A stretch of 64,000 nt of DNA from NCBI RefSeq assembly GCF_018847975.1, contig NZ_CP072597.1, positions 3,759,001 to 3,823,000 of the forward strand, written 5' to 3'. Source of the DNA: Lysobacter sp. K5869 (lineage in GTDB: Bacteria; Pseudomonadota; Gammaproteobacteria; Xanthomonadales; Xanthomonadaceae). The notes below the pieces were generated by a model. The model did not search any database, was not told the DNA's origin, and worked only from the letters and a program-made list of their open reading frames with translations. The stretch's first letter is position 1. Each line of letters begins with the position of its first letter. A program made the position numbers and the translations under genes. Shown here one piece after another: positions 32,506 to 52,552 of this stretch.

Positions 32506-32557
32506 GGAACCGATCCTGCGGAGGATGTGGGGAGCGTAAGCGGTCGCGGCGCGCGGG

Positions 32558-33844
<1,287 letters not shown>

Positions 33845-33888
33845 AAGCTCGTTGCGTGGTTCGGTGCGTGGGCGGAGGAAGCGGCGGG

Positions 33889-34314: not shown

Positions 34315-34324
34315 GCGGCCGCGC

Positions 34325-35335: not shown

Positions 35336-35342
35336 CGCCGCC

Positions 35343-35873
35343 TCAGGTGTCGGGCATCGCGTAGCGCGCCGGCGCCGGGTTCAGGTGACCGCATTGCGCG
35401 CAGGTGCGGTGCTCGCGCGAGGCGTAGAAGCGGTCGAACACCGGCGGGAAGTCGGTCTCGATGTTGCGCAGCTTGAAGAACTCTTCGTACAGCTTGTGGT
35501 TGCAGCGCTCGCAAAACCACATCAGGCCGTCGTCTTCGTGCTCCAGGCGCTTGCGCTCGATCACCAGACCGACCGAGTCGGGCATGCGCTGCGGCGAGTG
35601 CGGCACGCGCGCGGGCAGCAGGAAGATCTCGCCGGCGCGGATCGGGATGTCGCGCACCGCGCCGTCCTCCTGGATGCGCAGCACCATCTCGCCTTCGAGC
35701 TGGTAGAACCACTCCGGGCCTTCGTCCCAGTGGTAATCGGTGCGCTGGTTCGGGCCGCCGACCACCATGACGATGAAATCGCCGACGTAGATCGTTTTGT
35801 TGCCGACCGGCGGTTTGAGCAGGTGGCGGTGTTCTTCGATCCAGGCTTGCAGGTTCAGCGGTCCGGGCAGCAT
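35343..35873 (-). CDS. nbaC: 3-Hydroxyanthranilate 3,4-dioxygenase
   Basis: Ring-cleaving cupin dioxygenase of 176 residues that opens 3-hydroxyanthranilate to ACMS. The catalytic iron ligands lie in [16 protein letters not shown] and [12 protein letters not shown]. The second, rubredoxin-like metal site of the bacterial type is present: CERC and CAQC near the C-terminus. It starts at ATG 35873, only 3 bases after the stop of the RidA-type gene (35877). The preceding genes act directly on its downstream products. Confidence 0.95.
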
Positions 35874-35876
35874 GGC

Positions 35877-36317
35877 TTACTCCTTGGCCGCCTGCGCGGG
35901 CAGGCGGGCGACGCATTTGAGTTCGATCGCGATCGGCGTCGGCAGCGCGACGATGCCGAGCGTAGTCCGGCACGGCGCGCGGTCGATGTCGGGGAAATAC
36001 TCGGCCCACAGCGCGTTGTACGCGGCGAAGTCGCGGGCCATGTCGGTCAGGTACACCGTCACGTCGACCAGATCGTCCCAGCCCGCGCCGCTGGCCTCCA
36101 GCACCGCGCGCACGTTGGCGAACACCGAGCGCGTCTGCAGCTCGATGTCGTAGGCGATCAGGCGGCCCTGGGCGTCGTGGACGTTGCCGGGCACCGCGTT
36201 GCTGGCCGCGTCGCGCGGGCCGACCCCGGACAGGAACAGCAAGTCGCCGACCCGGCGCGCGTGCGGGTACAGCCCGACCGGTTTGGGCGCGTTGCCGGTG
36301 CGGACCGCGTCGCTCAT
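35877..36317 (-). CDS. nbaF: RidA-family 2-aminomuconate deaminase
   Basis: YjgF/RidA-fold protein of 146 residues. It carries the family core LSGVGPRDAASN, LQTRSVFANVRAVLEASG, DLVDVTVYLTDM and APCRTTLGIVALP with the conserved Arg. In this operon it most likely hydrolyses 2-aminomuconate to 4-oxalocrotonate and ammonia, as NbaF does in P. fluorescens. Its ATGA start overlaps the stop of the carbonic anhydrase gene by 4 bases, showing translational coupling. A general imine deaminase role is possible but context favours the aminomuconate substrate. Confidence 0.88.
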   Translation of the reverse strand: MSDAVRTGNAPKPVGLYPHARRVGDLLFLSGVGPRDAASNAVPGNVHDAQGRLIAYDIELQTRSVFANVRAVLEASGAGWDDLVDVTVYLTDMARDFAAYNALWAEYFPDIDRAPCRTTLGIVALPTPIAIELKCVARLPAQAAKE

Positions 36318-36979
36318 CGCGGCGAACCGCCGTGGGTCGAGTGCACCCGCGCCACCGCGCGCTCGTAAGCCGGCTGCAGCGATTCGAAGGAGTGCACGTT
36401 CATGCCGGTGTCGTGGACGCGGCCGTTGCGCAGGCTGTAGACCCAGCCGTGCACGCTCAGCGGCTGGCCGCGCGACCACGCGTCGCGCACGATCGTGGTC
36501 AGGCAGACGTTCTGCACCTGTTCGATCGCGTTGAGCTCGCACAGGCGGTCGTGGCGCTCGCCCTCGTGGGCGTGGGCGATGCACGACACGTGCTTGTCGG
36601 CGACGTCGCTGACGTGGCGCAGCCAGTTGTCGGCCAGTCCGACGCGGGTGCCGTGCAGCGCGGCGTGCACGCCGCCGCAGCCGTAATGGCCGACCACGAG
36701 GATGTGCTTGACCTTGAGCACGTCGACCGCGTACTGGATCACCGACAGGCAGTTGAGGTCGGTGTGCACCACCACGTTGGCGATGTTGCGGTGGACGAAC
36801 ACCTCGCCCGGGGCCATGTCGATGATCTGGTTGGCCGGGACGCGCGAGTCGGAGCAGCCGATCCACAGATACTCGGGCGCTTGCTGTTTGGACAGGCTGG
36901 CGAAGAATTCCGGGTCCTCGGCGTTGATTCGCTCGGACCATTCGCGGTTGCGTTCGAGCAGGTCGCTCAGCGGGCTCAT
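36314..36979 (-). CDS. can: Beta-carbonic anhydrase
   Basis: Zinc enzyme of 221 residues that interconverts CO2 and bicarbonate. The zinc ligands C42 (CSDSRVPANQI), H98 and C101 (VVGHYGCGGV) and the D44/R46 dyad are all present. ATG 36979 was chosen, giving the usual start MSPLSDLLERNREWSERI. It sits inside the kynurenine operon and overlaps the deaminase gene. It may process the CO2 released by the ACMS decarboxylase of the same operon. Confidence 0.93.
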   Translation of the reverse strand: MSPLSDLLERNREWSERINAEDPEFFASLSKQQAPEYLWIGCSDSRVPANQIIDMAPGEVFVHRNIANVVVHTDLNCLSVIQYAVDVLKVKHILVVGHYGCGGVHAALHGTRVGLADNWLRHVSDVADKHVSCIAHAHEGERHDRLCELNAIEQVQNVCLTTIVRDAWSRGQPLSVHGWVYSLRNGRVHDTGMNVHSFESLQPAYERAVARVHSTHGGSPR

Positions 36980-37040
36980 GCGCGGCCCTCCGCGTGCGGG
37001 GCGGGGGAGGCGGGCGAGGGAAGCAGCGAAATCATGCAAG

Positions 37041-38468
37041 TCATCCGAGATGGAGGCCGATGTTCTTGGCCTCGGTGAAGAAACGCAGGGCCTCGACGCC
37101 GCCTTCGCGGCCGAGGCCCGACGCGCCGGCGCCGCCGAACGGCGTGCGCAGGTCGCGTTGCAGCCAGGTGTTGATCCAGACCATGCCGACGTCGAGGCGC
37201 GCGGCCAGACGGTGGGCGCGGGCGAGATCGCGCGTCCACAGGCTGGCGCTGAGGCCGTAGTCGCTGGCGTTGGCCAGGGTCAGGGCGTGGGTGTCGTCGT
37301 CGAACGGCTGCAAGGTGGCGATGGGGCCGAAGATTTCCTCGCGGTTGCTCGCGGTCTCCGGGCCCAGGCCTTCGATCAGGGTCGGCGCCACGTACCAGCC
37401 GGGACGCTCCAGCGCGGCGCCGCCGCACAGCACCCGGCCGCCTTCGGCGCGGGCGCGCCCCAGCGCGGCGACGACTTTGTCGAAGTGCGCCTGCGAGACC
37501 AGCGGGCCGAGCGCGGTGGCGTCCTCGCCGGGCTCGCCCACGCGCAGCGCGTTGGCGCGTTCGATCAAGGCGTCGCGCACTTCGGCATAGATCGAACGCT
37601 CGATCAGGATGCGCGAGCCGCACAGGCAGATCTGCCCGGAGTTCTGGAACGCCGAGCGCACCAGCACGTCGAGGTTCGCGCGCCAGTCGCTGTCGGCGAA
37701 GATCAGGGTCGGGTTCTTGCCGCCGAGTTCCAGCGAGACCTTGCGCAGCAGCGGCGCGCAGGTCGCGGCGATGCCGCGGCCGACCGCGGTGCTGCCGGTG
37801 AACGACACCGCGCGGATCGCCGGGTGCGCGACCAGCGGCGCGCCGACCTCCGGGCCCAGCCCGTGAACGATATTGAGCACGCCCGGCGGGAACCCGATTT
37901 CAGCGCAGAGCTCGCCCAACATGCTCGCCGTGGCCGGAGTCACCTCCGAGGGTTTGGCCACCACGGTATTGCCCGCCGCCAACGCCGGCGCGATCTTCCA
38001 GGTGAACAGATACAGCGGCAGGTTCCACGGCGAGATCGCCGCGACCGGCCCGAGCGGCTGGCGCAAGGTGTAGTTGAGCCCGGCCTGACCGTGATGGGAT
38101 TCGCTGGCGAACTGGGTCGCGGCCTGGGCGTAGAAGCGCAGGTTCGACACCGCGCGCGGGATCTCGGCTTCGCGCGCCAGCCGGATCGGCTTGCCGCCGT
38201 CGCGCGATTCGGCGCGGGCGAACTCGTCGGTGCGCGCCTCCAGCGCCGCGGCCAGGCGCTCCAGCCACTGCGCCCGTTCGCTGTGCGCCAGCGCCGACCA
38301 CGCCGGAAACGCGGCCTGCGCCGCGGCCACCGCGGCCTCGACTTCGGCGGCCGCGCCGGCGGCGACCTGCGCATACGGCTGCGCATTGGCGGGATCGAAC
38401 ACGTCCAACCAGCGGCCGTCGGCCGCATCGCGCGGCGCCCCGTCGATCCAGTGCCGGAATCTGTGCAT
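37041..38468 (-). CDS. nbaE: 2-Aminomuconate 6-semialdehyde dehydrogenase
   Basis: NAD-dependent aldehyde dehydrogenase of 475 residues. The catalytic Glu lies in VSLELGGKNPTLIF, the nucleophilic Cys in NSGQICLCGSRI, and the cofactor region in FTGSTAVGRGIA. Operon context (ACMS decarboxylase, RidA deaminase, dioxygenase) assigns the substrate as 2-aminomuconate semialdehyde. It is the first gene of the leftward operon, with ATG at 38468 and 536 bases of upstream non-coding sequence. Confidence 0.92.
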   Translation of the reverse strand: MHRFRHWIDGAPRDAADGRWLDVFDPANAQPYAQVAAGAAAEVEAAVAAAQAAFPAWSALAHSERAQWLERLAAALEARTDEFARAESRDGGKPIRLAREAEIPRAVSNLRFYAQAATQFASESHHGQAGLNYTLRQPLGPVAAISPWNLPLYLFTWKIAPALAAGNTVVAKPSEVTPATASMLGELCAEIGFPPGVLNIVHGLGPEVGAPLVAHPAIRAVSFTGSTAVGRGIAATCAPLLRKVSLELGGKNPTLIFADSDWRANLDVLVRSAFQNSGQICLCGSRILIERSIYAEVRDALIERANALRVGEPGEDATALGPLVSQAHFDKVVAALGRARAEGGRVLCGGAALERPGWYVAPTLIEGLGPETASNREEIFGPIATLQPFDDDTHALTLANASDYGLSASLWTRDLARAHRLAARLDVGMVWINTWLQRDLRTPFGGAGASGLGREGGVEALRFFTEAKNIGLHLG

Positions 38469-39004: not shown

Positions 39005-40633
39005 GTGGACAGACGCAATTTCCTCAGCATGTCGGGGCTGGGCATCGCCGGGCTCATGATTCCTTTCGGCAACGTCATCGCCGCCGAAGACCTGTTGGCG
39101 CCGCTGGACGTGGCGAAGAAGAAGGCGTGGGCCGACGCGGCCCTGACCGCGGCGCGCGCGGCCGGCGCCAGCTACTGCGACGTGCGCATCGGCCGTTACC
39201 TGCGCCAGTTCGTGATCACCCGCGAGGACAAGGTCCAGAACGTGGTGAATTCCGAATCCACCGGCATCGGCATCCGCGTGCTGGTCGACGGCGCCTGGGG
39301 CTTCGCCGCGACCAACCAGCTCGGCACCGACGGCGCGGCCAAGGCCGCGCAGCAGGCCGCGGCGATCGCCCGCGCCAACGCCCGGGTCATCACCGCCAAG
39401 GTGCAGTTGGCCAAGGCGCCCGGCGTGGGCGAGGTGAGCTGGAAGACGCCGATCCGCAAGAACTCGATGGAAGTGCCGCTGAAGGAGAAGGCCGAGCTGC
39501 TGCTGGGCGTGAACGCCGCCGCGCTCGGCGCCGGCGCCAGCTTCGTCAACTCGATGCTGTTCCTGGTCAACGAGCAGAAGTATTTCGCCTCCACCGACGG
39601 CAGCTACATCGACCAGGACGTGCACCGGATCTGGGCGCCGATGACGATCACCGCGATCGACAAGGCCAGCGGCAAGTTCCGCACCCGCCAGGGCCTGTCC
39701 TCGCCGCGCGGCATGGGCTACGAGTACCTCGACGGCGCCGCCTCGGGCAAGACCGTGCTGCCGTGCGGAGTGACCGTCTACGGCGATTCCTACGACATGC
39801 GCGAGGACGCGGTGGCCGCGGCCAAACAGGCGCGGCAGAAGCTCACCGCGACCTCGGTCAAGCCGGGCAAGTACGATCTGGTGCTCGATCCCTCGCACAC
39901 CTGGCTCACCATCCACGAATCCATCGGCCACCCGCTCGAGCTCGACCGCGTGCTCGGCTACGAGGCCAACTACGCCGGCACCAGCTTCGCCACGCTCGAC
40001 AAGCGCGAGAACGCGTTCAAGTACGGCAGCGACAAGGTCAACGTGTTCGCCGACAAGACCCAGGTCGGCAGCCTCGGCGCGGTGGGCTTCGACGACGAAG
40101 GCGTCAAGACCAAGCGCTGGGACCTGATCAAGAACGGCGTGCTGGTCGATTACCAGACCATCCGCGATCAGGCCCACATCCTCGGCAAGACCGAATCCGA
40201 CGGCTGCTGCTACGCCGACTCGTGGTCGAGCGTGCAGTTCCAGCGCATGGCCAACGTGTCGCTGGCGCCGGGCAAGGACAAGCTCAGCGTCGCCGATCTG
40301 GTCAAGGACGTGGAGAACGGCATCTACATCGTCGGCGACGGTTCGTTCTCGATCGACCAGCAGCGCTACAACGCCCAGTTCGGCGGGCAGGTGTTCTACG
40401 AAATCAAGAACGGCAAGGTCACCGGCATGCTCGAGGACGTGGCCTATCAGATCCGCACCCCGGAATTCTGGAACTCCTGCGCCGCGGTCTGCGACGACAA
40501 GGACTACCGCCTGGGCGGTTCGTTCTTCGACGGCAAGGGCCAGCCGGGGCAGGTCTCGGCGGTCTCGCACGGTTCCAGCACGGCGCGGTTCAACGGCGTC
40601 AACGTCATCAACACCGCCCGCAAGCTCGGCTGA
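39005..40633 (+). CDS. tldD: Tat-exported TldD-like metallopeptidase, copy 1
   Basis: Zinc metallopeptidase of 542 residues of the TldD/PmbA type, which as TldD/TldE pairs degrade unfolded peptides. The N-terminus MDRRNFLSMSGLGIAGLMIP is a twin-arginine signal, unlike the cytoplasmic E. coli TldD. The zinc motif is HESIGH (H304, E305, H309) within HESIGHPLELDRVLGYEANY. It starts at GTG 39005 behind a GGGCGGGA ribosome site. It is followed 18 bases later by a TldE gene and then by a second TldD, so a TldD/TldE complex is expected. Confidence 0.9.
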   Translation: MDRRNFLSMSGLGIAGLMIPFGNVIAAEDLLAPLDVAKKKAWADAALTAARAAGASYCDVRIGRYLRQFVITREDKVQNVVNSESTGIGIRVLVDGAWGFAATNQLGTDGAAKAAQQAAAIARANARVITAKVQLAKAPGVGEVSWKTPIRKNSMEVPLKEKAELLLGVNAAALGAGASFVNSMLFLVNEQKYFASTDGSYIDQDVHRIWAPMTITAIDKASGKFRTRQGLSSPRGMGYEYLDGAASGKTVLPCGVTVYGDSYDMREDAVAAAKQARQKLTATSVKPGKYDLVLDPSHTWLTIHESIGHPLELDRVLGYEANYAGTSFATLDKRENAFKYGSDKVNVFADKTQVGSLGAVGFDDEGVKTKRWDLIKNGVLVDYQTIRDQAHILGKTESDGCCYADSWSSVQFQRMANVSLAPGKDKLSVADLVKDVENGIYIVGDGSFSIDQQRYNAQFGGQVFYEIKNGKVTGMLEDVAYQIRTPEFWNSCAAVCDDKDYRLGGSFFDGKGQPGQVSAVSHGSSTARFNGVNVINTARKLG

Positions 40634-40651
40634 CCGGGGCAGGAGAACACT

Positions 40652-41986
40652 ATGAGCATCTTCACCGAAGCCCAGTCCAAGGCGATTTTGGACAAGGTCA
40701 TTGCGTTGTCGAAGGCCGAGGAGACCAGCGCGCGGCTGACCGGCTCGATCGACGGCAACATCCGGTTCGCCCTCAACAACATCTCCACCAGCGGCGTGGT
40801 CAGCGACGTCAGCCTCGCGGTGCAGGTCTCCTTCGGCAAGCGCGTGGGCGTGGCGACGATCAACGAGTTCGACGACGCCGCGCTCGAACGCGTGGTCCGC
40901 CGCGCCGAGGATCTGGCCCGGCTGGCCCCGGAAAACCCGGAGTTCATGCCGATCATCGACAAGCAGAGCTACAAGGCCAGCCCGACCTTCGCCGCGCCGA
41001 CCGCGGCGATCGATCCGGCGTTCCGGGCCAAGGTCGCCGCCGATTCGATCGCGCCGTGCCGCGACGCCAAGCTCACCGCCGCCGGCTTCCTCGAGGACGG
41101 CCAGAGCTTCGTCGCCTTCGCCAACAGCAAGGGCAACTTCGGCTACCAGACCGCGACCAACTTCAACTACACCTGCACCGTGCGCACCGACGACGGCCGC
41201 GGCTCGGGCTGGGTCGGGCGCGATCTGACCGACTCCTCGAGCTTCAAGACCGACGCCGACATCCGCATCGCCATGCGCAAGGCCACCGAATCGGCCGAAG
41301 CCAAGGCGCTGGAGCCGGGCAAGTACACGGTGATCCTGGAGCCGCACGCGGCCGCCGGGCTGATCTCGTTCATGATGAATTTCTTCGACGCGCGCCAGGC
41401 CGACGAAGGCCGCAGCTTCCTGTCCAAGAAGGGCGGCGGCAACAAGCTCGGCGAACAGGTCTACGACCCGCGCGTCAACTTCACCGCCGATCCCTGGGAC
41501 CCGCGCGCGCCGGTGATGCCGTGGGACGTGGAAGGCCTGCCGCGCGAGAAGATGCCGATCGTCGAGAACGGCAAGGTGGTGGCGCTGAACTATTCGCGTT
41601 ACTGGGCGCAGAAGCAGGGCAAGCGCGTCGTCGGCGCGCCGGGCAATCTGATCATGGCCGGCGGCGACAAGACCACGGCCGAACTGGTCAAGGGCACCCA
41701 GAAGGGCATCCTGGTCACCCGCACCTGGTACATCCGCATGGTCGATCCGCAGACCGTGCTGCTGACCGGCCTGACCCGCGACGGCACCTTCTACATCGAG
41801 AACGGGCAGATCAAGCACCCGATCAAGAATTTCCGCTTCAACGAATCGCCGGTGATCATGCTCAACAACATCGAGGAACTCGGCCGCCCGGTGCGCGTGG
41901 CCGGCGACGAATCGACCCTGGTGATGATGATCCCGCCGATGAAGCTGCGCGATTTCACCTTCACCTCGCTGTCCGACGCGGTCTGA
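40652..41986 (+). CDS. tldE: TldE/PmbA-like subunit without signal peptide
   Basis: Protein of 444 residues, the non-catalytic partner of TldD peptidases. It shares the two-domain fold but lacks a HExxxH motif; the equivalent region reads EPHAAAGLISFMMNFFDARQ. Its N-terminus (MSIFTEAQSKAILDKVIAL) has no export signal, while both TldD neighbours have Tat signals. Either it hitch-hikes through the Tat system bound to a folded TldD, or it acts in the cytoplasm. A strong AGGAG ribosome site lies 7 bases before ATG 40652. Confidence 0.88.
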   Translation: MSIFTEAQSKAILDKVIALSKAEETSARLTGSIDGNIRFALNNISTSGVVSDVSLAVQVSFGKRVGVATINEFDDAALERVVRRAEDLARLAPENPEFMPIIDKQSYKASPTFAAPTAAIDPAFRAKVAADSIAPCRDAKLTAAGFLEDGQSFVAFANSKGNFGYQTATNFNYTCTVRTDDGRGSGWVGRDLTDSSSFKTDADIRIAMRKATESAEAKALEPGKYTVILEPHAAAGLISFMMNFFDARQADEGRSFLSKKGGGNKLGEQVYDPRVNFTADPWDPRAPVMPWDVEGLPREKMPIVENGKVVALNYSRYWAQKQGKRVVGAPGNLIMAGGDKTTAELVKGTQKGILVTRTWYIRMVDPQTVLLTGLTRDGTFYIENGQIKHPIKNFRFNESPVIMLNNIEELGRPVRVAGDESTLVMMIPPMKLRDFTFTSLSDAV

Positions 41987-42071
41987 CCGCCGCGCGGCCG
42001 GCGCGTGCGCGCGCCGGCCGCTCCGCCGTACCGCAGATCCGCAGGCACTACCCGCAAGAGGCCGCACCGCC

Positions 42072-43697
42072 GTGCAACGACGCGATTTCCTCAGCTCCGC
42101 CGGCTTCGGCCTGGCCGCGCTCATGCTTCCCTTCGGCCGCAGCGTCGCCGCCGAGGCCTTGCTGGAACCGGCCGACGCCGCGCTGCGCAAGCGGCTGGCC
42201 GACACCGCGCTCGGCGCCGCCCGCGACGGCGGCGCGCAGTATTGCGACGTGCGCGTGGGCCGCTACCTGCGCCAGTCGGTGCTGACCCGCGAGGCGCAGG
42301 TGCGCAACATCGTCAACGCCGAATCGGTCGGCGTCGGCGTGCGCGTGCTGCGCGACGGCGCCTGGGGCTTCGCCGCGACCTCGCAGACGACGCCCGACGC
42401 GGTCGCTAAAGCGACGAAGCAGGCGCTGGCCATCGCCCAGGCCAACGCGCGCGTGCAGACGCGCAAGGTCGAGCTGGCGCCGGTGCAGGGCGTGGGCGAG
42501 ACGCGTTGGGCCACGCCGGTGCGCAAGAACGCGCTGGCGGTGCCGATCAAGGACAAGGTCGACCTGCTGATGTCGGTCAACGCCGCCGCGCTCAAGAACG
42601 GCGCCGACTTCATCCAGTCCAACCTGTTCGCGATCAACGAACAAAAATATTTCGCCTCCAGCGACGGCAGCTACATCGATCAGGACGTGCACCGCATCTG
42701 GCTGCCGCTGACCGCGACCGCGGTCGACAAGGCCAGCGGCAAGTTCCGCACCCGCGACGGGCTGTCGGCGCCGATGGGCATGGGCTACGAGTACCTCGAC
42801 GCCGATCCGGCCGGCAAATTCGCGCTGCCCGGCGGGCTCACCGGCTACGGCCGCAGCTACGATGTGATCGAGGACGCTGTCGCCGCCGCGCGCCACGCCC
42901 GCGCCAAGCTCAAGGCGCCGTCGGTGAAGCCGGGCAAGTACGACTTGGTGATCGACCCGTCGAACCTGTTCCTGACCATCCACGAGAACGTCGGCCATCC
43001 GCTCGAACTCGACCGCGTGCTCGGCTATGAGGCCAACTACGCGGGCACCAGCTTCGCGACGTTGGACAAGCGCGACAGCGGCTACAAATACGGCAGCGAG
43101 CGGGTCAACTTCGTCGCCGACAAGACCCGCGCCGGCAGCCTGGGCGCGGTCGGTTTCGACGACGAAGGCGTGAAGACGCGCGAGTGGGATCTGGTCCGCG
43201 ACGGCGTGCTGGTCGACTATCAGGCCACCCGCGACGAGGCGCACATCCTCGGGCACAAGGAATCGCACGGCTGCAGCTATGCCGATTCTTGGTCGAGCGT
43301 GCAGTTCCAGCGCATGCCCAACGTGTCGCTGCGGCCCGGCAAGGACAAGCTCAGCGTCGCGCAGATGATCGAGGGCGTGGAGCGCGGCCTCTATATCCAC
43401 GGCCGCGGCTCGTATTCGATCGACCAGCAGCGCTACAACGCGCAGTTCGGCGGGCAGTTGTTCTTCGAGATCAAGAACGGCAAAGTCGCCGGGCTGATCG
43501 AGGACGCGGCCTACCAGATCCGCACGCCGGAGTTCTGGGCCTCGTGCTCGGCGATCTGCGACGAGCGCGATTTCCGCCTCGGCGGTTCGTTCTTCGACGG
43601 CAAGGGCCAGCCGAGCCAGGTGTCGGCGGTTTCGCACGGCGCGGCCACCGCGCGCTTCGACGGGGTCAACGTCATCAACACCGCGCGGGCGCTGTAG
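42072..43697 (+). CDS. tldD: Tat-exported TldD-like metallopeptidase, copy 2
   Basis: Paralogue of the gene at 39005, 541 residues, with a twin-arginine signal (MQRRDFLSSAGFGLAALMLP) and the same zinc motif placed identically: HENVGH with H304, E305 and H309. The catalytic half is very similar to copy 1 (YEANYAGTSFATLDKR shared exactly), while the N-terminal half diverges more, suggesting duplication followed by specialisation for a different partner or peptide. It starts at GTG 42072 and lies 85 bases after TldE. Confidence 0.9.
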   Translation: MQRRDFLSSAGFGLAALMLPFGRSVAAEALLEPADAALRKRLADTALGAARDGGAQYCDVRVGRYLRQSVLTREAQVRNIVNAESVGVGVRVLRDGAWGFAATSQTTPDAVAKATKQALAIAQANARVQTRKVELAPVQGVGETRWATPVRKNALAVPIKDKVDLLMSVNAAALKNGADFIQSNLFAINEQKYFASSDGSYIDQDVHRIWLPLTATAVDKASGKFRTRDGLSAPMGMGYEYLDADPAGKFALPGGLTGYGRSYDVIEDAVAAARHARAKLKAPSVKPGKYDLVIDPSNLFLTIHENVGHPLELDRVLGYEANYAGTSFATLDKRDSGYKYGSERVNFVADKTRAGSLGAVGFDDEGVKTREWDLVRDGVLVDYQATRDEAHILGHKESHGCSYADSWSSVQFQRMPNVSLRPGKDKLSVAQMIEGVERGLYIHGRGSYSIDQQRYNAQFGGQLFFEIKNGKVAGLIEDAAYQIRTPEFWASCSAICDERDFRLGGSFFDGKGQPSQVSAVSHGAATARFDGVNVINTARAL

Positions 43698-43732
43698 CCG
43701 GTGCGCAGCGCGGCGATCCCGGCGGTTTCGCG

Positions 43733-44434
43733 GTGAACCGCGCGCAGTTCCTGCGTCTGATGCTCGGCGCCGCGGCCGGCGCCTGGGCGGCGCGGTCGCC
43801 GCTGGCGCGGGCGGCGGCCGATTACGATTTCTGGTTCACCCGGCTCAAGTACGACTCCGGCGACTGGGACGTGGATCAGCGCATGCCGGCGAACCTGATC
43901 ACGTCCTTGATCGACTACACCCACTTGCGCGTTGACCCGAAGGAGCACGTGCTGGCGCTGGCCGATCCGAAGATGCTGGCGGCGCCGTTCTGCTATCTGG
44001 CCGGGCACAAGCTGGTCGAGTTCAACCCCGACGAGCGGCGCAATTTCGAGCGTTACGTGCGCAACGGCGGCTTCGTCTTCGTGGACGACTGCAACCATGA
44101 CATCGACGGATTGTTCGCCAAGTCGTTCGAGGCGCAGATGGGCAAGATCTTCGGCGCCAAGGCGTTGAAGAAACTGCCGAAAAACCACCCGCTGTATCGC
44201 AGCTTCTTCGTCTTCGATGGCCCGCCGGCGACCGGTTTCGAACTCAACGGCTGGGGCGACGATCTGGTCCACGATTACCTCAAGGGCATCGAGATCGACG
44301 GGCGGCTCGGCGTGCTGTACAGCAATAAAGACTACGGTTGCGAGTGGGATTACGACTGGCGCAACAAGCGGTTCCTGGCCGAGGACAACACCAAGTTCGC
44401 GGTCAATATCGTGATGTATGCGTTGAATGCGTGA
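43733..44434 (+). CDS. DUF4159 domain exported protein
   Basis: Protein of 233 residues starting at GTG 43733. The N-terminus (FLRLMLGAAAGAWAARSPLA) is a signal peptide. The rest fits DUF4159: FWFTRLKYDSGDWDVDQ, the NGGFVFVDDCNHDIDG stretch and a glutamine-amidotransferase-like fold without an obvious catalytic Cys. DUF4159 proteins are often encoded next to MoxR/DUF58 genes, as here. It is the link between the TldD and MoxR parts of the cluster. Function is unknown. Confidence 0.75.
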   Translation: MNRAQFLRLMLGAAAGAWAARSPLARAAADYDFWFTRLKYDSGDWDVDQRMPANLITSLIDYTHLRVDPKEHVLALADPKMLAAPFCYLAGHKLVEFNPDERRNFERYVRNGGFVFVDDCNHDIDGLFAKSFEAQMGKIFGAKALKKLPKNHPLYRSFFVFDGPPATGFELNGWGDDLVHDYLKGIEIDGRLGVLYSNKDYGCEWDYDWRNKRFLAEDNTKFAVNIVMYALNA

Positions 44435-44437
44435 GGC

Positions 44438-44465
44438 GGGAATAGGGAATAGGGAATAGGGAATA
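44438..44465 (+). repeat. Heptad tandem repeat, site 4 (GGGAATA x4)
   Basis: Four exact copies of GGGAATA in tandem, between the DUF4159 stop and the MoxR start. Unlike the other four sites, no inverted arm is present. This is the clearest demonstration that the repeat unit is 7 bases. Confidence 0.9.
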
Positions 44466-44507
44466 GTCGGGCGGGATTGTTCGATAACGATGGTTTCGGG
44501 AGTGGCT

Positions 44508-45509
<1,002 letters not shown>

Positions 45510-45561
45510 GCGCGATGATGGGCGGCGGCGTTGACGGCGAGGCGGTGGGCGAGGGCGCGGC

Positions 45562-46455
45562 GTGCGCGACCTGATTCCCGCCGACGTGCGCGCGCGCCTG
45601 CGCAGCCTGACTCTGATGTCGCGTCGCGCGGTCGGCGCACACGGCATCGGTGCGCACCGCAGCCGCAGCCGCGGCGCCGGCCTGGAATTCGCCCAGTACC
45701 GCGCTTACGAGCCCGGCGACGAACTGCGCCAGATCGACTGGAAGCTCTATGCGCGCTCGGACCGCTTCTTCGTCCGCGAAGCCGAGCGCGAAAGCCCGCT
45801 GGCGGCGTGGCTGCTGCTCGACGCCACCGCCTCGATGGATCAGCGCGACGGCGCGCGCCCCGATTACTCGCGCCTGGACGCGGCCAAGGCCATCGCCGCC
45901 TGCGTGGCCGAACTGGCGCTGCGCCAGAACGACCGCTTCGGCCTGATCGCGCTGTGCGAGGACGGCTTGCGCCTGATCGCGCCGGGCAACGGACCGCGCC
46001 AGCGCGACCGTTTGCTGTTGGAACTGCACGGCCTGCAGGCGCGCGGCGCGTGGCCCGAAGCGCCGCTGCTGCGGCCGCTGTGGGAGCGCATCGGCGCCGG
46101 AGATCTGGTGCTGATGCTCGGCGACGGCCTCGACGAAGCCGCGTTGGCGGTGGCCGAGCGGCTGGCCGCCGCGCGCCGCGAAGTGTTGGGCGTGCGCATC
46201 CTCACCGCCGAGGAGCGCGATTTCCCGTTCCGCGGCGGCCATCGCTTCCGCGACCCGGAAAGCGGCGAGGAACTGCTCGGCGACGGCGACGCGCTGCGGC
46301 GCGAATTCATCGAACGCTTCGCCGCCGCGCGCCGCGCCGTCGACGCGCGTTTGGATTCGGCCGGCATCCGCCACGCCGAACACGTGCTCGACGAACCGGT
46401 CGATCTGCCGTTGCGGCGCTTGTTCGGCGGCCGCGACAGCGCGGTGGACGCATGA
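45562..46455 (+). CDS. DUF58 domain protein
   Basis: Protein of 297 residues. The N-terminal DUF58 core contains the hallmark YRAYEPGDELRQIDWKLYAR, followed by a vWA-like half with LLLDATASMDQRDG, where a metal-ion-dependent adhesion site begins. It starts at GTG 45562 and overlaps the next gene by ATGA. DUF58 proteins are the usual partners of MoxR ATPases and probably are their clients. Confidence 0.88.
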   Translation: MRDLIPADVRARLRSLTLMSRRAVGAHGIGAHRSRSRGAGLEFAQYRAYEPGDELRQIDWKLYARSDRFFVREAERESPLAAWLLLDATASMDQRDGARPDYSRLDAAKAIAACVAELALRQNDRFGLIALCEDGLRLIAPGNGPRQRDRLLLELHGLQARGAWPEAPLLRPLWERIGAGDLVLMLGDGLDEAALAVAERLAAARREVLGVRILTAEERDFPFRGGHRFRDPESGEELLGDGDALRREFIERFAAARRAVDARLDSAGIRHAEHVLDEPVDLPLRRLFGGRDSAVDA

Positions 46456-47609
46456 GCGCGGCGTTGTTGCTGCCCATCGCCCTGGCCGCGCTGGCGGCGT
46501 TGGCGCTGCCGCTGCTGATCCATCTGGCCCGGCGCAGCGAGCAGCGCCCGACCGTGTTCGCCGCGCTGCGCTGGCTGCGCGAGAAGCCGCGGCCGCGCAG
46601 CCGCCTGCGTTTCGACGAATGGCCGCTGTTGCTGCTGCGCCTTTTGTTGTTGGCGGCGCTGGCCTTGTTGTTGGCGCGGCCGGTGTTGTTCGGCGCGCAA
46701 TCGCGCACCGCGTGGCTGGCGGTGGCGCCGGGCGTGGATGCGGCCCAGGCCGGCGCGGGATTGGAGAACGCCGAACTCGAACGGCGCTGGTTGGCGCCGG
46801 GCTTTCCCGCGTTGAGCCAGCCGGCGCCGCCGGCGCCGGCCGATCTGGCGAGCGTAGTGCGCGAACTCGATGCGCGCTTGCCGCCCGGCGTCGCGCTGAC
46901 GCTGGCGGTGCCGGCGCGTTTCGACGGCGCCGACGGCGCGCGCCTGCGCTTGTCGCGGCCGGTGCAATGGCGCGCGATCGATGCCGCCGCGGCCGATGCG
47001 CCTGCGCCGCGCGAGGCTGCGCTCGCGCCGCCCGCGATCCGTTATGCGCCGGAGCTCGCGCCGTCGGCGGCGTATCTGCGCGCCGCCGTTGCCGCCTGGA
47101 ACCAACGCGAGACCGCGGTGGACGCCGCGCCGCTGACCCAAGCCTTCGATCCGAAGGCGCGTTCGCTGATCTGGCTCGCGCCCGGCCCGGTGCCGGCGAC
47201 GGTGCGCGACTGGGTCGCGCAGGGCGGCCGGGTGCTGTTGGACGCGCGCGCGGTCTGGCCCGAAGCGCAGTTCGACGCGCCGTTGTGGCGCGACGCCGAA
47301 GGCACGGTGCGCGTCGCCGGCGCGCGGGTCGAGCGCGGACAGGCGCTGCGTTTCGCCGGCCCCGTGCAGCCGCGCGCGTGGCCGGCGTTGCTGCAGCCGG
47401 GATTCGCCGCCGCGCTGCGCGATTTGTTCGCCGCACCGGCGCCGCCGCCGGCGCGGATCGCCGCGCGCGACTACGCGCCGGCGGGCGGTGGGCCGACGTT
47501 CGCCGCGCCGCCGCTGGATCTGCGGCCGTGGCTGGCGCTGCTGGTGGCGGCGTTGTTCTTGCTCGAACGTTGGTTCGCGACGCGTTCCAAGCGCGGAGTC
47601 GCGCCATGA
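46452..47609 (+). CDS. BatA-like membrane protein
   Basis: Protein of 385 residues with two N-terminal membrane segments (2-24 and about 55-77) enclosing the BatA motif LPLLIHLARRSEQRPTVFAALRWL, and a third near the C-terminus (WLALLVAALFLLERWF). The long central part is periplasmic, Ala/Arg-rich, and lacks a visible vWA metal site. Translation start ATG 46452 is coupled by ATGA to the DUF58 gene. It is part of the MoxR cluster. Confidence 0.75.
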   Translation: MSAALLLPIALAALAALALPLLIHLARRSEQRPTVFAALRWLREKPRPRSRLRFDEWPLLLLRLLLLAALALLLARPVLFGAQSRTAWLAVAPGVDAAQAGAGLENAELERRWLAPGFPALSQPAPPAPADLASVVRELDARLPPGVALTLAVPARFDGADGARLRLSRPVQWRAIDAAAADAPAPREAALAPPAIRYAPELAPSAAYLRAAVAAWNQRETAVDAAPLTQAFDPKARSLIWLAPGPVPATVRDWVAQGGRVLLDARAVWPEAQFDAPLWRDAEGTVRVAGARVERGQALRFAGPVQPRAWPALLQPGFAAALRDLFAAPAPPPARIAARDYAPAGGGPTFAAPPLDLRPWLALLVAALFLLERWFATRSKRGVAP

Positions 47610-49768
47610 GCGCGATTCAGCAGGCGCAACGCTGGCACGGGCAGGCGCGGCACAGCCGCGCGATCCATCTCGCGCTGGTCTGGGGCGTTTGGCTGGTGCC
47701 GCTGTTCGCGCTGAGCGCGCGCTGGTTCGGCGCCGGCATCGCTTGCGCGGCGACGGCGTTCGGCATCGTCTGGGTCGCCTGGCGCGCTTGGCGCGGCGCG
47801 GTGCGCCTGGATCGCGAATGGCTGGTGCGCCGGCTCAACGCGCTGCGTTCCGACATGGACGACAGCGCCGACCTGTTGTTCGCCGAATCCGGTTCTCTGC
47901 GCGGATTGCAGCGTTTGCAGCGCGCGCGGTTGGAACGGCGGATCGAAGCCGGACCGCAGACCGATGTGCGCGAGCCGCCATCGTGGCGCGCGCTGGCCGC
48001 TTGCGCGGCGATCGCGCTGGCGCTGACCGCGGCGGCGGCGTTGTGGCCGCAACCCGATCGCCTGCCGGCCGAACTCGCGTTGTCGCCCGCGCCGCCGGTC
48101 GCGGCCGCGCCGGGCCAGCCGCGCCTGATCGCACAGGCGCTGCGGATCGAGCCGCCGGGCTACACCGGCTTGCCGGCGCGCGAGGAACCCGGTTTGGAAG
48201 GCCGCGTGCCCGAAGGCGCGACGCTGCGCTGGCGTCTGCGCTTCGAGCCGCAACCGGCGCAGGCCGCCTTGGTCTTCCACGATGGCGAGCGCTTGCCGTT
48301 GCGGCGCGACGGCGAGACGTGGAGCGCGCAGCGCGCATTGGCGAAATCCAGCCTGTACCGGATCGACGCCGCCGGCGCACCGCAAGCGCAAACGCGGCGC
48401 TTGTACCGTCTCGATGTCGTGCCCGACCGTCCGCCGCAATTGCGCGTGCTGCAGCCCGAGCGCGGTCTGACCTTGCTCGCGCGCGGCCAAAAGACCTGGC
48501 CGCTGGCGTTCGAGGCCAGCGACGATTACGGCGTCGCGGCCACCGCGCGTTTGCGCATCGTGCTGGCGCAAGGCAGCGGCGAGCAGATCACCTTCCGCGA
48601 GCGCAGCGTCGCGCTGCGCGGCAGCGGCGGCGCGACCGCCAAGCGCTTCGTCCATGCGCTGGATCTGGCCGCGCTCGGCTTCGCCGTCGGCGACGATCTG
48701 ATCGTCCAGCTGAGCGCGTCCGACAACCGCGCGCCGCAGCCGCAGACCGCGCTGAGCCCGAGCCTGATCCTGCGCTGGCCGGCCGATCCCGGCAGCGAGG
48801 CCACCGGCATCGAGGGCATGGTCAAGACGGTGCTGCCGGCGTATTTCCGCAGCCAGCGCCAGATCATCATCGACGCCGAAGCCTTGATCGCGCAGCGGCG
48901 CAAGCTCGACGGCGACGCCTTCGTCAAGAAGTCCGACGCCATCGGCGTGGACCAGCGCCTGCTGCGTTTGCGTTACGGCCAGTTCCTCGGCGAAGAGGCC
49001 GAGGGCGAGCCCAAGCTGCCGACCAGCGACAGCGAGGACGAGCACGCGCATGAGGGCGAAGGCCACGACGTATCCGCGCCGGCCGACGCGCACGATCACG
49101 CCCCTGCCGCCGCGGCGGGCGCGGACAAGCCGGTGTTCGGCGAAGCTGGCGCGGTGCTGGAGGAGTACGGCCATACCCACGATCACGCGGAAGCGGCGAC
49201 CTTGCTCGATCCGCAGACCCGTGCCTTGCTGAAGTCGGCGCTGGATCAGATGTGGCAGTCCGAACTGCATCTGCGCCAGGGCCAGCCGCAGCAGGCGTTG
49301 CCGTTCGCGTACAAGGCGCTAGGGTTCATCAAGCAGGTGCAGCAGGCCAGCCGCATCTATCTGGCGCGGGTCGGGCCGGAGCTGCCGCCGATCGACGAGA
49401 GCCGGCGCTTGAGCGGCGACCGTACGGGCTTGGCGCGGCGCGAGGACGCGCTGGCGCCGGCGAGCGCGGCCGATCCGTTGCCGGCGCGGCTGTGGCGCGA
49501 GTTGCAGGCGCCGGCGTCGCAGCCGGTCGATTACGCCGCGCTGGAGCGCTGGCTCGGCGCGAATCAGTCGCGCGTGCCCGATCCGCTGGCGTTCGCCGCG
49601 GCGCTGGCGGCGTTGCGCGACCGGCCCGATTGCGGCGAGTGCCGAGCGCGCCTGCGCGGCCTGTTGTGGCCGCTGCTGCAGGCGCCCGCGACCACGGTGC
49701 GCGCGCGCGACGCCGGCGACGCGCGCGACCGCCGCTACTTCGACGCCTTGCGGCAGGAGGCGCAATGA
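47606..49768 (+). CDS. Large membrane protein with DUF4175-like features and His-rich linker
   Basis: Protein of 720 residues with membrane segments near residues 22-65 and 130-150, then a long periplasmic part rich in beta strands (YRLDVVPDRPPQLRVLQPER and following) and helices. A His/Asp/Glu-rich linker lies at about residues 478-532 (EDEHAHEGEGHD, DAHDHAP, GHTHDHAE), a possible metal-binding strip. The resemblance to DUF4175 is by layout only. It overlaps its upstream neighbour by ATGA, so it is translationally coupled to the MoxR unit. Function is unknown. Confidence 0.6.
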   Translation: MSAIQQAQRWHGQARHSRAIHLALVWGVWLVPLFALSARWFGAGIACAATAFGIVWVAWRAWRGAVRLDREWLVRRLNALRSDMDDSADLLFAESGSLRGLQRLQRARLERRIEAGPQTDVREPPSWRALAACAAIALALTAAAALWPQPDRLPAELALSPAPPVAAAPGQPRLIAQALRIEPPGYTGLPAREEPGLEGRVPEGATLRWRLRFEPQPAQAALVFHDGERLPLRRDGETWSAQRALAKSSLYRIDAAGAPQAQTRRLYRLDVVPDRPPQLRVLQPERGLTLLARGQKTWPLAFEASDDYGVAATARLRIVLAQGSGEQITFRERSVALRGSGGATAKRFVHALDLAALGFAVGDDLIVQLSASDNRAPQPQTALSPSLILRWPADPGSEATGIEGMVKTVLPAYFRSQRQIIIDAEALIAQRRKLDGDAFVKKSDAIGVDQRLLRLRYGQFLGEEAEGEPKLPTSDSEDEHAHEGEGHDVSAPADAHDHAPAAAAGADKPVFGEAGAVLEEYGHTHDHAEAATLLDPQTRALLKSALDQMWQSELHLRQGQPQQALPFAYKALGFIKQVQQASRIYLARVGPELPPIDESRRLSGDRTGLARREDALAPASAADPLPARLWRELQAPASQPVDYAALERWLGANQSRVPDPLAFAAALAALRDRPDCGECRARLRGLLWPLLQAPATTVRARDAGDARDRRYFDALRQEAQ

Positions 49769-51636
49769 ACTTCGAGACGACCGTCGCGACGGTGTTGGGC
49801 GTCGCCGCCGCGCTGGCGATGGCGCGCACGCTGTGGCGTCAGCAACGGGCCGAGTCCGCGTCGCGTTCGCGCGGCTGGCGCGTCGCTGCGTTGTTGCTGG
49901 CGCAGCCGCTGATCGCGGCGTTGCTGTACTTCGCGCTGTTCCCGCCGCGCTTGCCGGGACAGGCCGGCACCCTGGCGGTCGCCGCCGCGGGCGCCAGCGA
50001 TGCGGCTTGGCGCGAGGCCGCGGGCGAGGTGCGCGTGGTTCTGCCGGAAGCGTCGCGGGATCTGGACGGCGAGCGCGTGCCCGATCTGGCGACCGCGTTG
50101 CGCCGCTATCCGCAAAGCCAGCGCTTGCGCGTCGTCGGCGCGGGCCTGATTGCGCGCGACCGCGACGCGGTGCGCGGCATCGCCGTGGACTTCGCAGCCG
50201 CGCCGCTGCCGCGCGGGATCGTCGGCGCCTGGGCGCCGGCGCGGATCGGCGAGGGCGAAACCTTCGCCGTGCGCGGCCGGGTCGAAGGCGCGAACGGCGG
50301 CGCGGTGGAACTGCTCGATCCGGCCGGTCAGCGCGTGGATCGCGCCGCGCTCGTCGCCGACGGGACCTTCGCCTTGGACGCGGTGGCGCGCGTCGCCGGC
50401 CGCGCCGGTTTCGCGCTGCGCGCCGTGGACGCGCAGCAGCGCGAGATCGAACGCGTGGCGCTGCCGGTGTCGGTCGAAGCCGAGCCGCCGGTGCGGGTCT
50501 TGTTGTTGGCCGGTGCGCCGGGGCCGGAGCTGAAGTATCTGCGCCGCTGGGCCAGCGATTCTGGCCTCAAGCTGCATACGCAGATCGCCACCGGCGCGGG
50601 GATGCAACTCGGCGACGCGCCGCTGCGCATCGACGCGCCGACCTTGGCCGGTTTCGATGCGCTCGTGATCGACGAGCGCGCCTGGGACGCGCTCGCGCCC
50701 GCGCAACGCGCGGCGTTGGCCGGCGCGCTGCGCGGCGGCCTCGGCGTGCTGCTGCGCGCGACCGGGCCGCTGTCGCCGGGCTTGCGCGCGCAATTGCGCG
50801 AATTCGGCCTGGAACCCGGCGCGGGCGCCGACACCGCGACCTTGCGCCTGCCGGTCGAACGCGCCGACGAAGCCGCGTTGCGCGCGCGCCTGGGGCCGGG
50901 CAGCGCGGACGCGCCGCGTTCGCGCGAGCAAGCGCCGCCCGCGTTGCCGACCTTGACGCGCCGGGCCTTGGCGCTGGACGCGCCGGCGTTGCAAGCCTTG
51001 GGCGTCGACGCCGACGGCAAGGCCTTCGCCGCATGGCGCGCGGCCGGGCAGGGGCGCATCGCGGTGTGGGGCGTGAGCGACAGCTTCCGCCTGGTCTTGG
51101 CCGGGCGCGAGGACGCGCATGCGCGTTTGTGGAGCCGGGCGCTGTCGGCGCTGGCGCGGCCGCGCGCAGTGGCGCGGGCCGAGATCGATAGCGACGCGCG
51201 CGTGGGCGAGCGCGTGCGCCTTTGCGGCGTGGGCGCGCAGGCGCAGGTCGTCGCCTCCGACGGCGCGCGCATCGGTTTGTCCGTCGATCCGGCGGCGGGG
51301 CCGAAGGCTTGCGCCGGATTCTGGCCGACGTCGGCCGGCTGGCATTCGCTGGAACAAGGCGAGCGGCGTCAGGACTTCTACGTTCGGGCGGCCGACGAAG
51401 CGCCGGGATTGCGCGCCCGCGAGTTGCGCGATGCGACGGCGGCGTTGGCGCTGCGGTCGGGCGAATCGTCGGCGACAGCGACGGCGAGCGCGTCGCAAAC
51501 CGGCGAACGCGGTTCGCCTTGGCGCTGGTTCGCCGCATGGCTGACGCTGTGCGCGGCGTTGTGGTGGTTCGAGCGCTCGCGCTTCGGCCGCGCGGGCGGT
51601 GCGTCGGGCGCGGCGGCTTCCGATCCGCCGCGCTGA
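49765..51636 (+). CDS. Membrane protein with amidotransferase-like domain
   Basis: Protein of 623 residues with two N-terminal membrane segments (TVATVLGVAAALAMARTLW and VAALLLAQPLIAALLYFALF) and one C-terminal (WFAAWLTLCAALWWFE). The middle resembles class I glutamine-amidotransferase-like domains found in BatA-type gene clusters (VRVLLLAGAPGPELKYLRRW, then GFDALVIDERAWDAL), without a clear nucleophilic Cys. It is coupled by ATGA to the previous gene and closes the cluster. Function is unknown; membrane location is well supported. Confidence 0.65.
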   Translation: MNFETTVATVLGVAAALAMARTLWRQQRAESASRSRGWRVAALLLAQPLIAALLYFALFPPRLPGQAGTLAVAAAGASDAAWREAAGEVRVVLPEASRDLDGERVPDLATALRRYPQSQRLRVVGAGLIARDRDAVRGIAVDFAAAPLPRGIVGAWAPARIGEGETFAVRGRVEGANGGAVELLDPAGQRVDRAALVADGTFALDAVARVAGRAGFALRAVDAQQREIERVALPVSVEAEPPVRVLLLAGAPGPELKYLRRWASDSGLKLHTQIATGAGMQLGDAPLRIDAPTLAGFDALVIDERAWDALAPAQRAALAGALRGGLGVLLRATGPLSPGLRAQLREFGLEPGAGADTATLRLPVERADEAALRARLGPGSADAPRSREQAPPALPTLTRRALALDAPALQALGVDADGKAFAAWRAAGQGRIAVWGVSDSFRLVLAGREDAHARLWSRALSALARPRAVARAEIDSDARVGERVRLCGVGAQAQVVASDGARIGLSVDPAAGPKACAGFWPTSAGWHSLEQGERRQDFYVRAADEAPGLRARELRDATAALALRSGESSATATASASQTGERGSPWRWFAAWLTLCAALWWFERSRFGRAGGASGAAASDPPR

Positions 51637-51766: not shown

Positions 51767-52552
51767 TCAGATCGACTGCATCCGCCCGCCGTCCACGGCC
51801 AGACTCACGCCGTTGACGTATCCCGCCGCTGGCGAGCACAGGAACGCGATGCAGGCGCCGATTTCCTCGGGCTCGGCGAAACGCGCGGCCGGCACGGTTT
51901 TGCGCATGGCCTCGATCACCGCCTCGGGCGTCTGGCCGCTGTTGCGCGCGCGGTCGGCGACGATCTGGTCGATGCGCGCGGTGCGGGTGTAGCCGGGCAA
52001 CACGTTGTTGACGGTGATGCCGTCGCCGCCGAGTTCGCGCGACAAGGTCTTGGCCCAGCTCGCGACCGCGCCGCGGATGGTGTTGGACACGCCCAAACCG
52101 ACGATGGGCTCCTTGACCGAAGTCGAGATCACGTTGACCACGCGCCCCCAGCGCGCCGCGCGCATGCCCGGCAGCACCGCGCGCACCAGGGTGTGGTTGG
52201 CGAGCAGATGGCGGTTGAAGGCGTCGAGATAAGCCGCGTCCTCGGCCGCATGGGCCGGGCCGCCCGGCGGGCCGCCGGTGTTGTTGATCAGGATCTGCAC
52301 CGGCTTGCCGGCGGCCAGCGCCTGCACCTGCGCGGACAGCGCGGCGTGGTCGGACACGTCGGCGGCGATCCAGCCGTGTTCCTGCGCGCCTTGCCGCGGC
52401 AGTTCGGCGACGACCGCGGCCAAGGCCTCGGCGCGGCGCGCCAGCACGGTGACGTCGCAGCCCAACAGCGCCAACTCGCGCGCGGCGGCGCGGCCGATGC
52501 CTTCGGACGCGCCGCACACCAAGGCGTGCTTGCCGGTGAGATTCAGGTCCAT
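51767..52552 (-). CDS. SDR-family oxidoreductase with altered catalytic motif
   Basis: Protein of 261 residues with an SDR Rossmann core (CGASEGIGRAAARELALLG, then NNTGGPPGG). The usual catalytic Ser is present (ISTS, residues 142-145), but the YxxxK position reads SNTIR (156-160), so both Tyr and Lys are replaced. The C-terminal SLAVDGGRMQSI is normal. It starts at ATG 52552. Similar LSNxxR sequences occur as an SDR subgroup whose activity is uncertain. It may be a reductase with another proton donor, or a non-catalytic binding protein. Confidence 0.8.
   Translation of the reverse strand: MDLNLTGKHALVCGASEGIGRAAARELALLGCDVTVLARRAEALAAVVAELPRQGAQEHGWIAADVSDHAALSAQVQALAAGKPVQILINNTGGPPGGPAHAAEDAAYLDAFNRHLLANHTLVRAVLPGMRAARWGRVVNVISTSVKEPIVGLGVSNTIRGAVASWAKTLSRELGGDGITVNNVLPGYTRTARIDQIVADRARNSGQTPEAVIEAMRKTVPAARFAEPEEIGACIAFLCSPAAGYVNGVSLAVDGGRMQSI

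Follow-up and report, generated by a model that had tools for sequence, protein, structure and literature searches.

A nine-gene cluster of Lysobacter sp. K5869 (GCF_018847975.1) joins peptidase genes of the TldD/TldE family to a set of membrane-associated genes that includes a MoxR-type ATPase. The cluster lies in a stretch of 64,000 nt on the forward strand of NZ_CP072597.1 (3,759,001-3,823,000), which is referred to here as the window and to which all coordinates refer. The open reading frame (ORF) call of the window gave nine ORFs at 39005-51636, all on the + strand (Table 1). PmbA_TldD domains 1-3 were found in each of the first three proteins above the Pfam cut-offs. Pfam also identified DUF4159 (gene 4), AAA_3 with its lid, corresponding to MoxR (gene 5), DUF58 (gene 6) and the BatA N-terminal domain (gene 7), and assigned no family to the 720- and 623-amino acid (aa) proteins. 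The ORFs and Pfam domains thus confirm the original prediction, made from the DNA sequence alone, of nine genes on one strand in the order TldD-TldE-TldD2-DUF4159-MoxR-DUF58-BatA. The three ATGA overlaps that it reported in the second half were found at 46452-46455, 47606-47609 and 49765-49768.

Table 1. Genes and repeat of the cluster, in window coordinates
Feature	Position	Strand	Description
TldD1	39005..40633	+	542 aa, Asp-type TldD metallopeptidase, twin-arginine translocation (Tat)-type signal DRRNFL...IAA
TldE	40652..41986	+	444 aa, partner subunit; no HExxxH, no signal peptide
TldD2	42072..43697	+	541 aa, second Asp-type TldD, Tat-type signal QRRDFL...VAA; HExxxH 304-309; D509 at the place of Cys454
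DUF4159	43733..44434	+	233 aa, single-R signal resembling a Tat signal; modelled fold like that of class I glutamine amidotransferases
MoxR-type AAA+ ATPase	44508..45509	+	333 aa; further in-frame ATG at 44490
DUF58	45562..46455	+	297 aa, vWA-like, D-x-S/T-x-S motif at 87-91; no transmembrane (TM) segment found
BatA-type membrane protein	46452..47609	+	385 aa, double-TM anchor domain
720-aa membrane protein	47606..49768	+	N-terminal TM helices, two immunoglobulin (Ig)-like domains, helical C-terminus, His/Asp/Glu-rich disordered loop, GHxHD 522-526
623-aa membrane protein	49765..51636	+	remote likeness to the glutamine amidotransferase (GATase)-like gene of a cousin module
7-bp GGGAATA tandem repeat	44438..44466	+	in the gap between DUF4159 and MoxR

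The gap between the DUF4159 and MoxR genes is 73 bp in the window (up to the ATG at 44508) and holds the GGGAATA repeat, whose 15-base pattern occurs at five places in the genome, three of these overlapping at 44438-44466. Among relatives the gap is 20 bp or less in 38/97. No terminator-like site was found on the + strand in the gaps 43698-43732 and 44435-44507, and a weak 5-pair site is present at 44191, within the DUF4159 gene; the scan returned 16 sites in 15 kb compared to 9.9 expected from shuffled sequence.

Linkage and co-occurrence of the two halves

The neighbourhoods of related TldD genes were compared. The named loci came from the best 80 of at least 587 TldD matches, and so represent the closest relatives; they gave 78 TldD-anchored loci. 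Counts refer to loci with enough downstream sequence, and nine of the 78 were left out since the contig ended or TldE was not reached. Sequence sets in this study pool anonymous and named genomes, with some genomes in both, and merging was confined to sequences or N-termini that were identical. The order TldD(s)-TldE-DUF4159-MoxR-DUF58-BatA-720-623 was kept around the named loci, with DUF4159 found downstream in 69/69, MoxR in 64/64, DUF58 in 63/63, BatA in 59/61, the 720-aa protein in 28/28 and the 623-aa protein in 7/7. The BatA profile was missed in L245 and L252, and the BatA gene of L252 was found at lower stringency. The TldD part itself varied, being D-D-E in 29 loci, D-E in 22, D-E-D-E in ten, D-E-D (the window type) in seven and D-E-D-E-D-E in one. 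Hosts among the matches listed were Lysobacteraceae, other Gammaproteobacteria, Massilia, sphingomonads, Caulobacteraceae and Bacteroidota (among them Runella, Emticicia and Dyadobacter), and the closest named relative among them was Lysobacter enzymogenes (TldD2 96%).

The same families also co-occur when whole genomes are counted. A TldD2 relative (E<1e-100) was present in 31 of 60 genomes comprising the window's own and its kin, and a DUF4159 protein was present in the same 31 and also in G026, whose genome is incomplete and holds a fragment. Among 398 Pseudomonadota genomes that were drawn, this TldD (E<1e-200) was detected in 13, including the window's; at E 1e-40 there were 23, the other ten being divergent. 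DUF4159 was detected in 106 genomes of this draw. It formed a separate gene in 13, exactly the 13 with this TldD (open frames of 229-299 aa, the window's own frame being 467 aa around the 233-aa gene), and in 93 of the 106 it lay in frames of at least 578 aa, all outside the window's class. All 12 fetched regions of TldD-bearing draw genomes carried DUF4159, MoxR, DUF58 and the 720-aa protein alongside TldD/E (the fetched region of L096 gave no match for BatA or the 623-aa protein), and the module was found in none of four fetched regions (L100-L103) from the ten divergent-TldD genomes. Among 80 chosen Pseudomonadota, the 720-aa protein was present in 13/13 with this TldD and in 0/67 others. 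These others comprised ten with divergent TldD (among them G244, which also has a fused DUF4159), 54 with fused DUF4159 and three with neither, so that the test covered 55 of the 93 fused-DUF4159 genomes with G244 counted under divergent TldD. Divergence of TldE, DUF4159, MoxR, DUF58 and the 720-aa protein was matched across 75 loci (r 0.87-0.97), a correlation confounded by species kinship. No further gene family beside the unit was common to more than two of 28 chosen loci.

Linkage is looser in Bacteroidota. We searched 296 genomes drawn around G453, a genome chosen for having the cluster, with cut-offs of E<1e-60 for TldD and E<1e-30 for the 720-aa protein. TldD was present in 29 genomes and the 720-aa protein in 24, all of them among the 29, compared to 0/267 of the TldD-free genomes (Fisher 9e-31). 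In these 24 genomes the two genes were within 15 kb of each other in 17, 122 kb apart on the same contig in one and on different contigs in six. Partial or rearranged regions were also seen: L264 is rearranged, L271 has the last three module genes before TldD and L273 has DUF4159 and MoxR only. DUF4159 was found in 212/296 of the genomes, in the rows listed nearly always as its own short frame, and mostly without TldD.

The original prediction treated the two halves as a unit, and this was borne out: the gene order holds across Gamma- and Alphaproteobacteria as well as many Bacteroidota, and the halves co-occur even where the genes are unlinked. Collectively, these results make it highly likely that the nine genes form one functional system. 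Since related bacteria, even in another phylum, tend to carry both halves together, this is very probably one envelope system.

In a MoxR tree, L232, L236 and L093, from Caulobacteraceae and Sphingomonas clusters, group within a branch (95/99) whose other members are mostly Lysobacteraceae, suggesting that the unit as a whole was transferred horizontally. Rearrangements were seen in L264, L094-L095 and L233: Brevundimonas lenta (L233) and G428 have a convergent extra TldD after the cluster, and in G669 the cluster is split, with TldD/E pairs on either end. A further TldD/E locus (L228) lies on a contig titled Verrucomicrobia, on a stretch that ends just past TldE.

Export signals and active site of the TldD/TldE pair

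To assess export, distinct N-termini were compared for the twin-arginine (RR) pattern RRx[FLIMVA], in a search that began 12 residues ahead of the aligned start, so that a few matches may precede the true start, and for hydrophobicity, with a cut of >1.6 for the peak of the first 40 residues. TldD proteins carried the RR pattern at or near the N-terminus in 157/160, kept across phyla, with a median hydrophobicity of 1.65 and 87/160 passing the cut. Tat signals are usually of moderate hydrophobicity only. TldE had the pattern in 4/103, a median of 0.69 and none of 103 past the cut; the MoxR control had a median of 0.83 and 0/99 past the cut. DUF4159 had RR in 34/94, a single R in 46/94 and 41/94 past the cut; the window's own DUF4159 has a weaker single-R signal, NRAQFL. 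The TldD signals strongly suggest an envelope location for the system, and it is likely that TldD/E acts outside the cytoplasm.

Hydrogenases and dimethyl sulfoxide (DMSO) reductase show the pattern of Tat hitchhiking, in which just one member of an obligate pair bears the signal. As TldE does not appear to be Tat-targeted itself, export of an active TldD/E pair would require hitchhiking. The Tat-exported TldD trio of the original prediction is accordingly narrowed: TldD1 and TldD2 carry the RR signal and TldE carries none. With the signal confined to a single subunit across two phyla, the cluster offers a clean test case for Tat hitchhiking, and a peptidase family thought to be cytoplasmic gains a probable envelope role.

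The catalytic motif HExxxH was present in 176/176 TldD rows and in 0/116 TldE rows. In E. coli TldD, Zn or Fe is bound by His262, His267 and Cys454, and the authors noted that Asp replaces the Cys ligand in some TldD sequences (PMC5810440). In the cluster TldD the canonical CGK reads DGK, and D509 was aligned with Cys454 via CGK-bearing intermediate relatives. Residue 509 was Asp in 173/176 rows and Cys in three, so the alignment indicates that Asp probably takes the place of Cys as third zinc ligand. Four Bacteroidota loci with no module in the fetched stretch (L260-L263) have Cys at this position in one (L261) and Asp in three. Two further cysteines, Cys401 (175/176) and Cys492 (172/176), are conserved and could form a disulfide. 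The pair thus resembles the E. coli TldD/TldE (PmbA) heterodimeric metalloprotease (PDB 5nj5 and others) in its three PmbA_TldD domains, in the confinement of HExxxH to TldD and in the adjoining TldE-type partner. It differs in the Tat-type TldD signal, the Asp for Cys454, the conserved Cys401 and Cys492, the frequent presence of two TldD genes and the MoxR module. In the Runella and Litoribacter genomes (2/2), matches to the TldD C-terminal domain were confined to this cluster, whereas the five proteobacteria tested have others too.

The membrane module and related systems

The window MoxR matched AAA_3 at E 1.4e-62 and is followed by DUF58. Its Walker B motif, ADExNR, was present in 96/96 rows, and Walker A, by a strict pattern, in 79/96. 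DUF4159 proteins of this type keep two stretches, D118-D119-C120-N121-H122 and N198-K199-D200-Y201-G202-C203, which in the predicted glutamine amidotransferase-like fold may mark an active site. Hoch_4089 of Haliangium ochraceum (PDB 4i66) shares 26% identity in the alignment and does not have the D-C-N-H stretch of this DUF4159 subfamily. The original prediction had described the product of gene 9 as amidotransferase-like, and Pfam gave no support for this; in 7/20 loci of a cousin module, the GATase-like gene was remotely similar to the 623-aa protein (E 1e-4 to 5e-3).

The 720-aa protein has TM segments at 19-37 and 129-147 by hydropathy. A basic stretch between them, judged by eye, would by the positive-inside rule place the bulk of the protein outside. 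Structures were predicted for single chains of this protein and of DUF4159. The 720-aa model (mean predicted local distance difference test score (pLDDT) 83.5, predicted template modelling score (pTM) 0.43) shows TM helices at the N-terminus, a pair of Ig-like domains and a helical region broken by a disordered loop. Two or more His were present in the loop in 78/78 rows (median five, maximum 13), and its Asp and Glu residues together had a median count of 17. Within the GHxHD motif, H523 and H525 were invariant (78/78). Peak His content per 60 residues had a median of eight over 82 sequences, while in the other seven families the medians were 1-4 and the maxima 3-7. Such His-rich loops are common in metal-handling proteins, and the His- and acid-rich character of this one led us to a metal hypothesis. 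Some relatives of the 720-aa protein were labelled DUF4175 in the search listing.

A cousin module was found among the fused-DUF4159 genomes, 20 regions of the 93 being inspected. MoxR and DUF58 lay near the fused gene in 20/20, and TldD, TldE or the 720-aa protein in 0/20. Its make-up, MoxR-DUF58-(BatA/DUF4159 fusion)-GATase-like, is clearly homologous to the window's cluster in MoxR and DUF58 (20/20), and the Pfam DUF4159 family covers both types; remote profile likeness was seen for DUF4159 in 4/20, BatA in 7/20 and the 623-aa protein in 7/20. It differs in that DUF4159 is fused to a BatA-like protein and that TldD/E and the 720-aa protein are lacking, compared to the separate 233-aa DUF4159 here. 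In the MoxR tree of 52 rows, the 20 cousin-module rows split from the rest at 100/99 support. As this MoxR-DUF58-fused DUF4159 module exists free of TldD, the module type is more ancient or more widespread than its association with TldD. A DUF4159 match was also found in the Caulobacter vibrioides control.

The Bacteroides aerotolerance (Bat) operons, which with MoxR encode BatA with a vWA domain, BatB, BatC and BatD, share MoxR, DUF58 and the BatA N-terminal domain with the cluster. A Pfam search at E 0.1 of the BatA-type protein and of genes 8 and 9 gave no further vWA, TPR or Bat domain: the BatA-type protein yielded the BatA N-terminal domain alone, and genes 8 and 9 nothing. In this respect the cluster differs from a Bat operon. 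None of the PADLOC anti-phage models matched the eight cluster proteins other than TldD2.

A nine-locus uncharacterised operon of Stenotrophomonas maltophilia, NIPOLPBK_01784-01792, is described as including two TldD and a MoxR-like ATPase, and some of its genes were down in biofilm in all isolates (PMC7688217). From the listed products we infer that it is this cluster. The S. maltophilia loci L199, L205 and L244 have the same nine genes by family. The passages on the operon in the published account do not deal with export, the active site, partners or how widely it occurs (PMC7688217). The combination is therefore not entirely without precedent, an uncharacterised operon of this kind having been noted in S. 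maltophilia (PMC7688217). What is new is a recurrent combination of known parts in which TldD bears a signal and has an altered ligand, and in which a metal-loop protein is a partner.

A proposed mechanism and alternatives to it

The explanation that we consider best overall, and rate at even chances, is that exported TldD/E is matured or controlled by a MoxR-DUF58 membrane complex, most likely at its metal centre. Eight gene families would make up the system. The TldD/TldE heterodimer would fold with its metal in the cytoplasm, and Tat would export it folded through the TldD signal, with TldE as a signal-less hitchhiker and DUF4159 as an exported accessory protein. The BatA-type, 720-aa and 623-aa proteins would form a membrane complex with most of its mass in the periplasm, driven by a cytoplasmic MoxR-DUF58 ATPase pair. 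The MoxR-DUF58 complex would then mature or control the exported peptidase, most likely via the metal centre, and the 720-aa protein would bind metal through its His/acid-rich loop and HxH pair. The analysis shows the gene content, linkage and co-occurrence of the families, their signal motifs and active-site residues, and the His-rich loop; export, hitchhiking, topology and the Asp zinc ligand are deduced here from sequence. Of the parts of this scheme, that the module matures or controls TldD/E is a serious possibility, if slightly short of an even one, and that it does so by handling metal is tentative. The metal-maturation machine in full, in which an Asp-ligated site of Tat-exported TldD with hitchhiking TldE would be loaded or repaired at the membrane by MoxR-DUF58 via the 720-aa loop and HxH pair, and the chamber would then clear or process periplasmic peptides, is doubtful. 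MoxR ATPases are widespread and, to our knowledge, few have a known client; one MoxR lineage here comes with a probable client from an enzyme family that has a structure, an activity assay and inhibitors.

Several observations weigh against this scheme. Separation of the two halves in most relatives was not seen in Pseudomonadota, but of 15 fetched Bacteroidota TldD regions eight had at least part of the module and seven had none within the fetched stretch. Those with none were L260-L263, where TldD is divergent, L268 and L272, whose genomes carry the 720-aa gene at another place, and L270, which is a further TldD/E pair from the L271 genome. In L260-L263, L268 and L272, TldD has a Tat-type signal and TldE none (the TldE start of L261 is unsure), so some TldD/E pairs may work without local help. 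Five Bacteroidota TldD genomes were without the 720-aa protein: four with divergent TldD (45-53% identity), of which G463 gave a weak partial match only, and G696, whose TldD is close. In G538 and G596 the 720-aa gene is elsewhere, and those 20 kb gave no MoxR or DUF4159 profile match. The TldD-free cousin implies that the client there must be something else and that this module type does not need TldD. The periplasmic peptide processing put forward in the original prediction is an inference. For the metal step, the 720-aa relatives L236 and L264 have a maximum of four His per 60 residues, and a His-rich loop is by itself no proof of metal handling.

Among the alternatives, the one closest to our proposal keeps the exported peptidase and has the module feed or regulate its substrates: the membrane complex, powered by MoxR, would extract peptides or present them to the TldD/E chamber, without maturation of the enzyme. 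The Ig-like domains of the 720-aa model and the GATase-like fold of the DUF4159 model resemble binding modules, and some TldD/E pairs manage without the module. ATP is confined to the cytoplasm, however, no channel-like part was seen, and the invariant HxH and His-rich loop would be left unexplained; we regard this reading as unlikely. It is distinctly unlikely that TldD/E functions here not as a peptidase but as an amidase or N-deacetylase, with an envelope glycan or a small molecule as its substrate. The title of a 2022 review by Vobruba and others is said to name N-deacetylases beside peptidases in the TldD/TldE family, yet HExxxH and the TldE partner are kept here as in the peptidase, and the 28 chosen loci have no further family conserved beside the unit.

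That the RR segment is non-working, with all parts acting inside the cytoplasm or on the membrane's inner face, would suit the cytoplasmic location of canonical TldD/E, the signal-less TldE and the modest share of TldD N-termini that pass the hydrophobicity cut. It is very unlikely given an RR pattern kept across phyla in nearly all TldD N-termini, and the replacement of the Cys ligand by Asp together with two conserved Cys would suit an oxidising compartment. A review on leader proteases of ribosomally synthesised and post-translationally modified peptides (RiPPs) reportedly names TldD. Maturation of a RiPP or microcin would agree with the removal of the microcin B17 leader by TldD/E (PMC5810440), but among ORFs of at least 100 aa no precursor, modification enzyme or exporter family was common beside the unit in the 28 loci, and this reading is highly improbable. 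Chance adjacency of two unrelated operons might be read from the repeat-bearing gap between DUF4159 and MoxR and from the TldD-free occurrence of the module type. It is contradicted by the counts, that is by the unbroken MoxR linkage, the unlinked co-occurrence and the short gap in many relatives, and its probability is close to nil.

Both flanks of the cluster are on the opposite strand, with an aldehyde dehydrogenase gene at 37041-38468 and a short-chain dehydrogenase gene at 51767-52552. The adjoining - strand stretch, 31132-38468, has matches to kynureninase, amidohydrolase and aldehyde dehydrogenase and is apparently a kynurenine-degradation set, in which the ORF at 31132-32610 was judged by eye to be monooxygenase-like.

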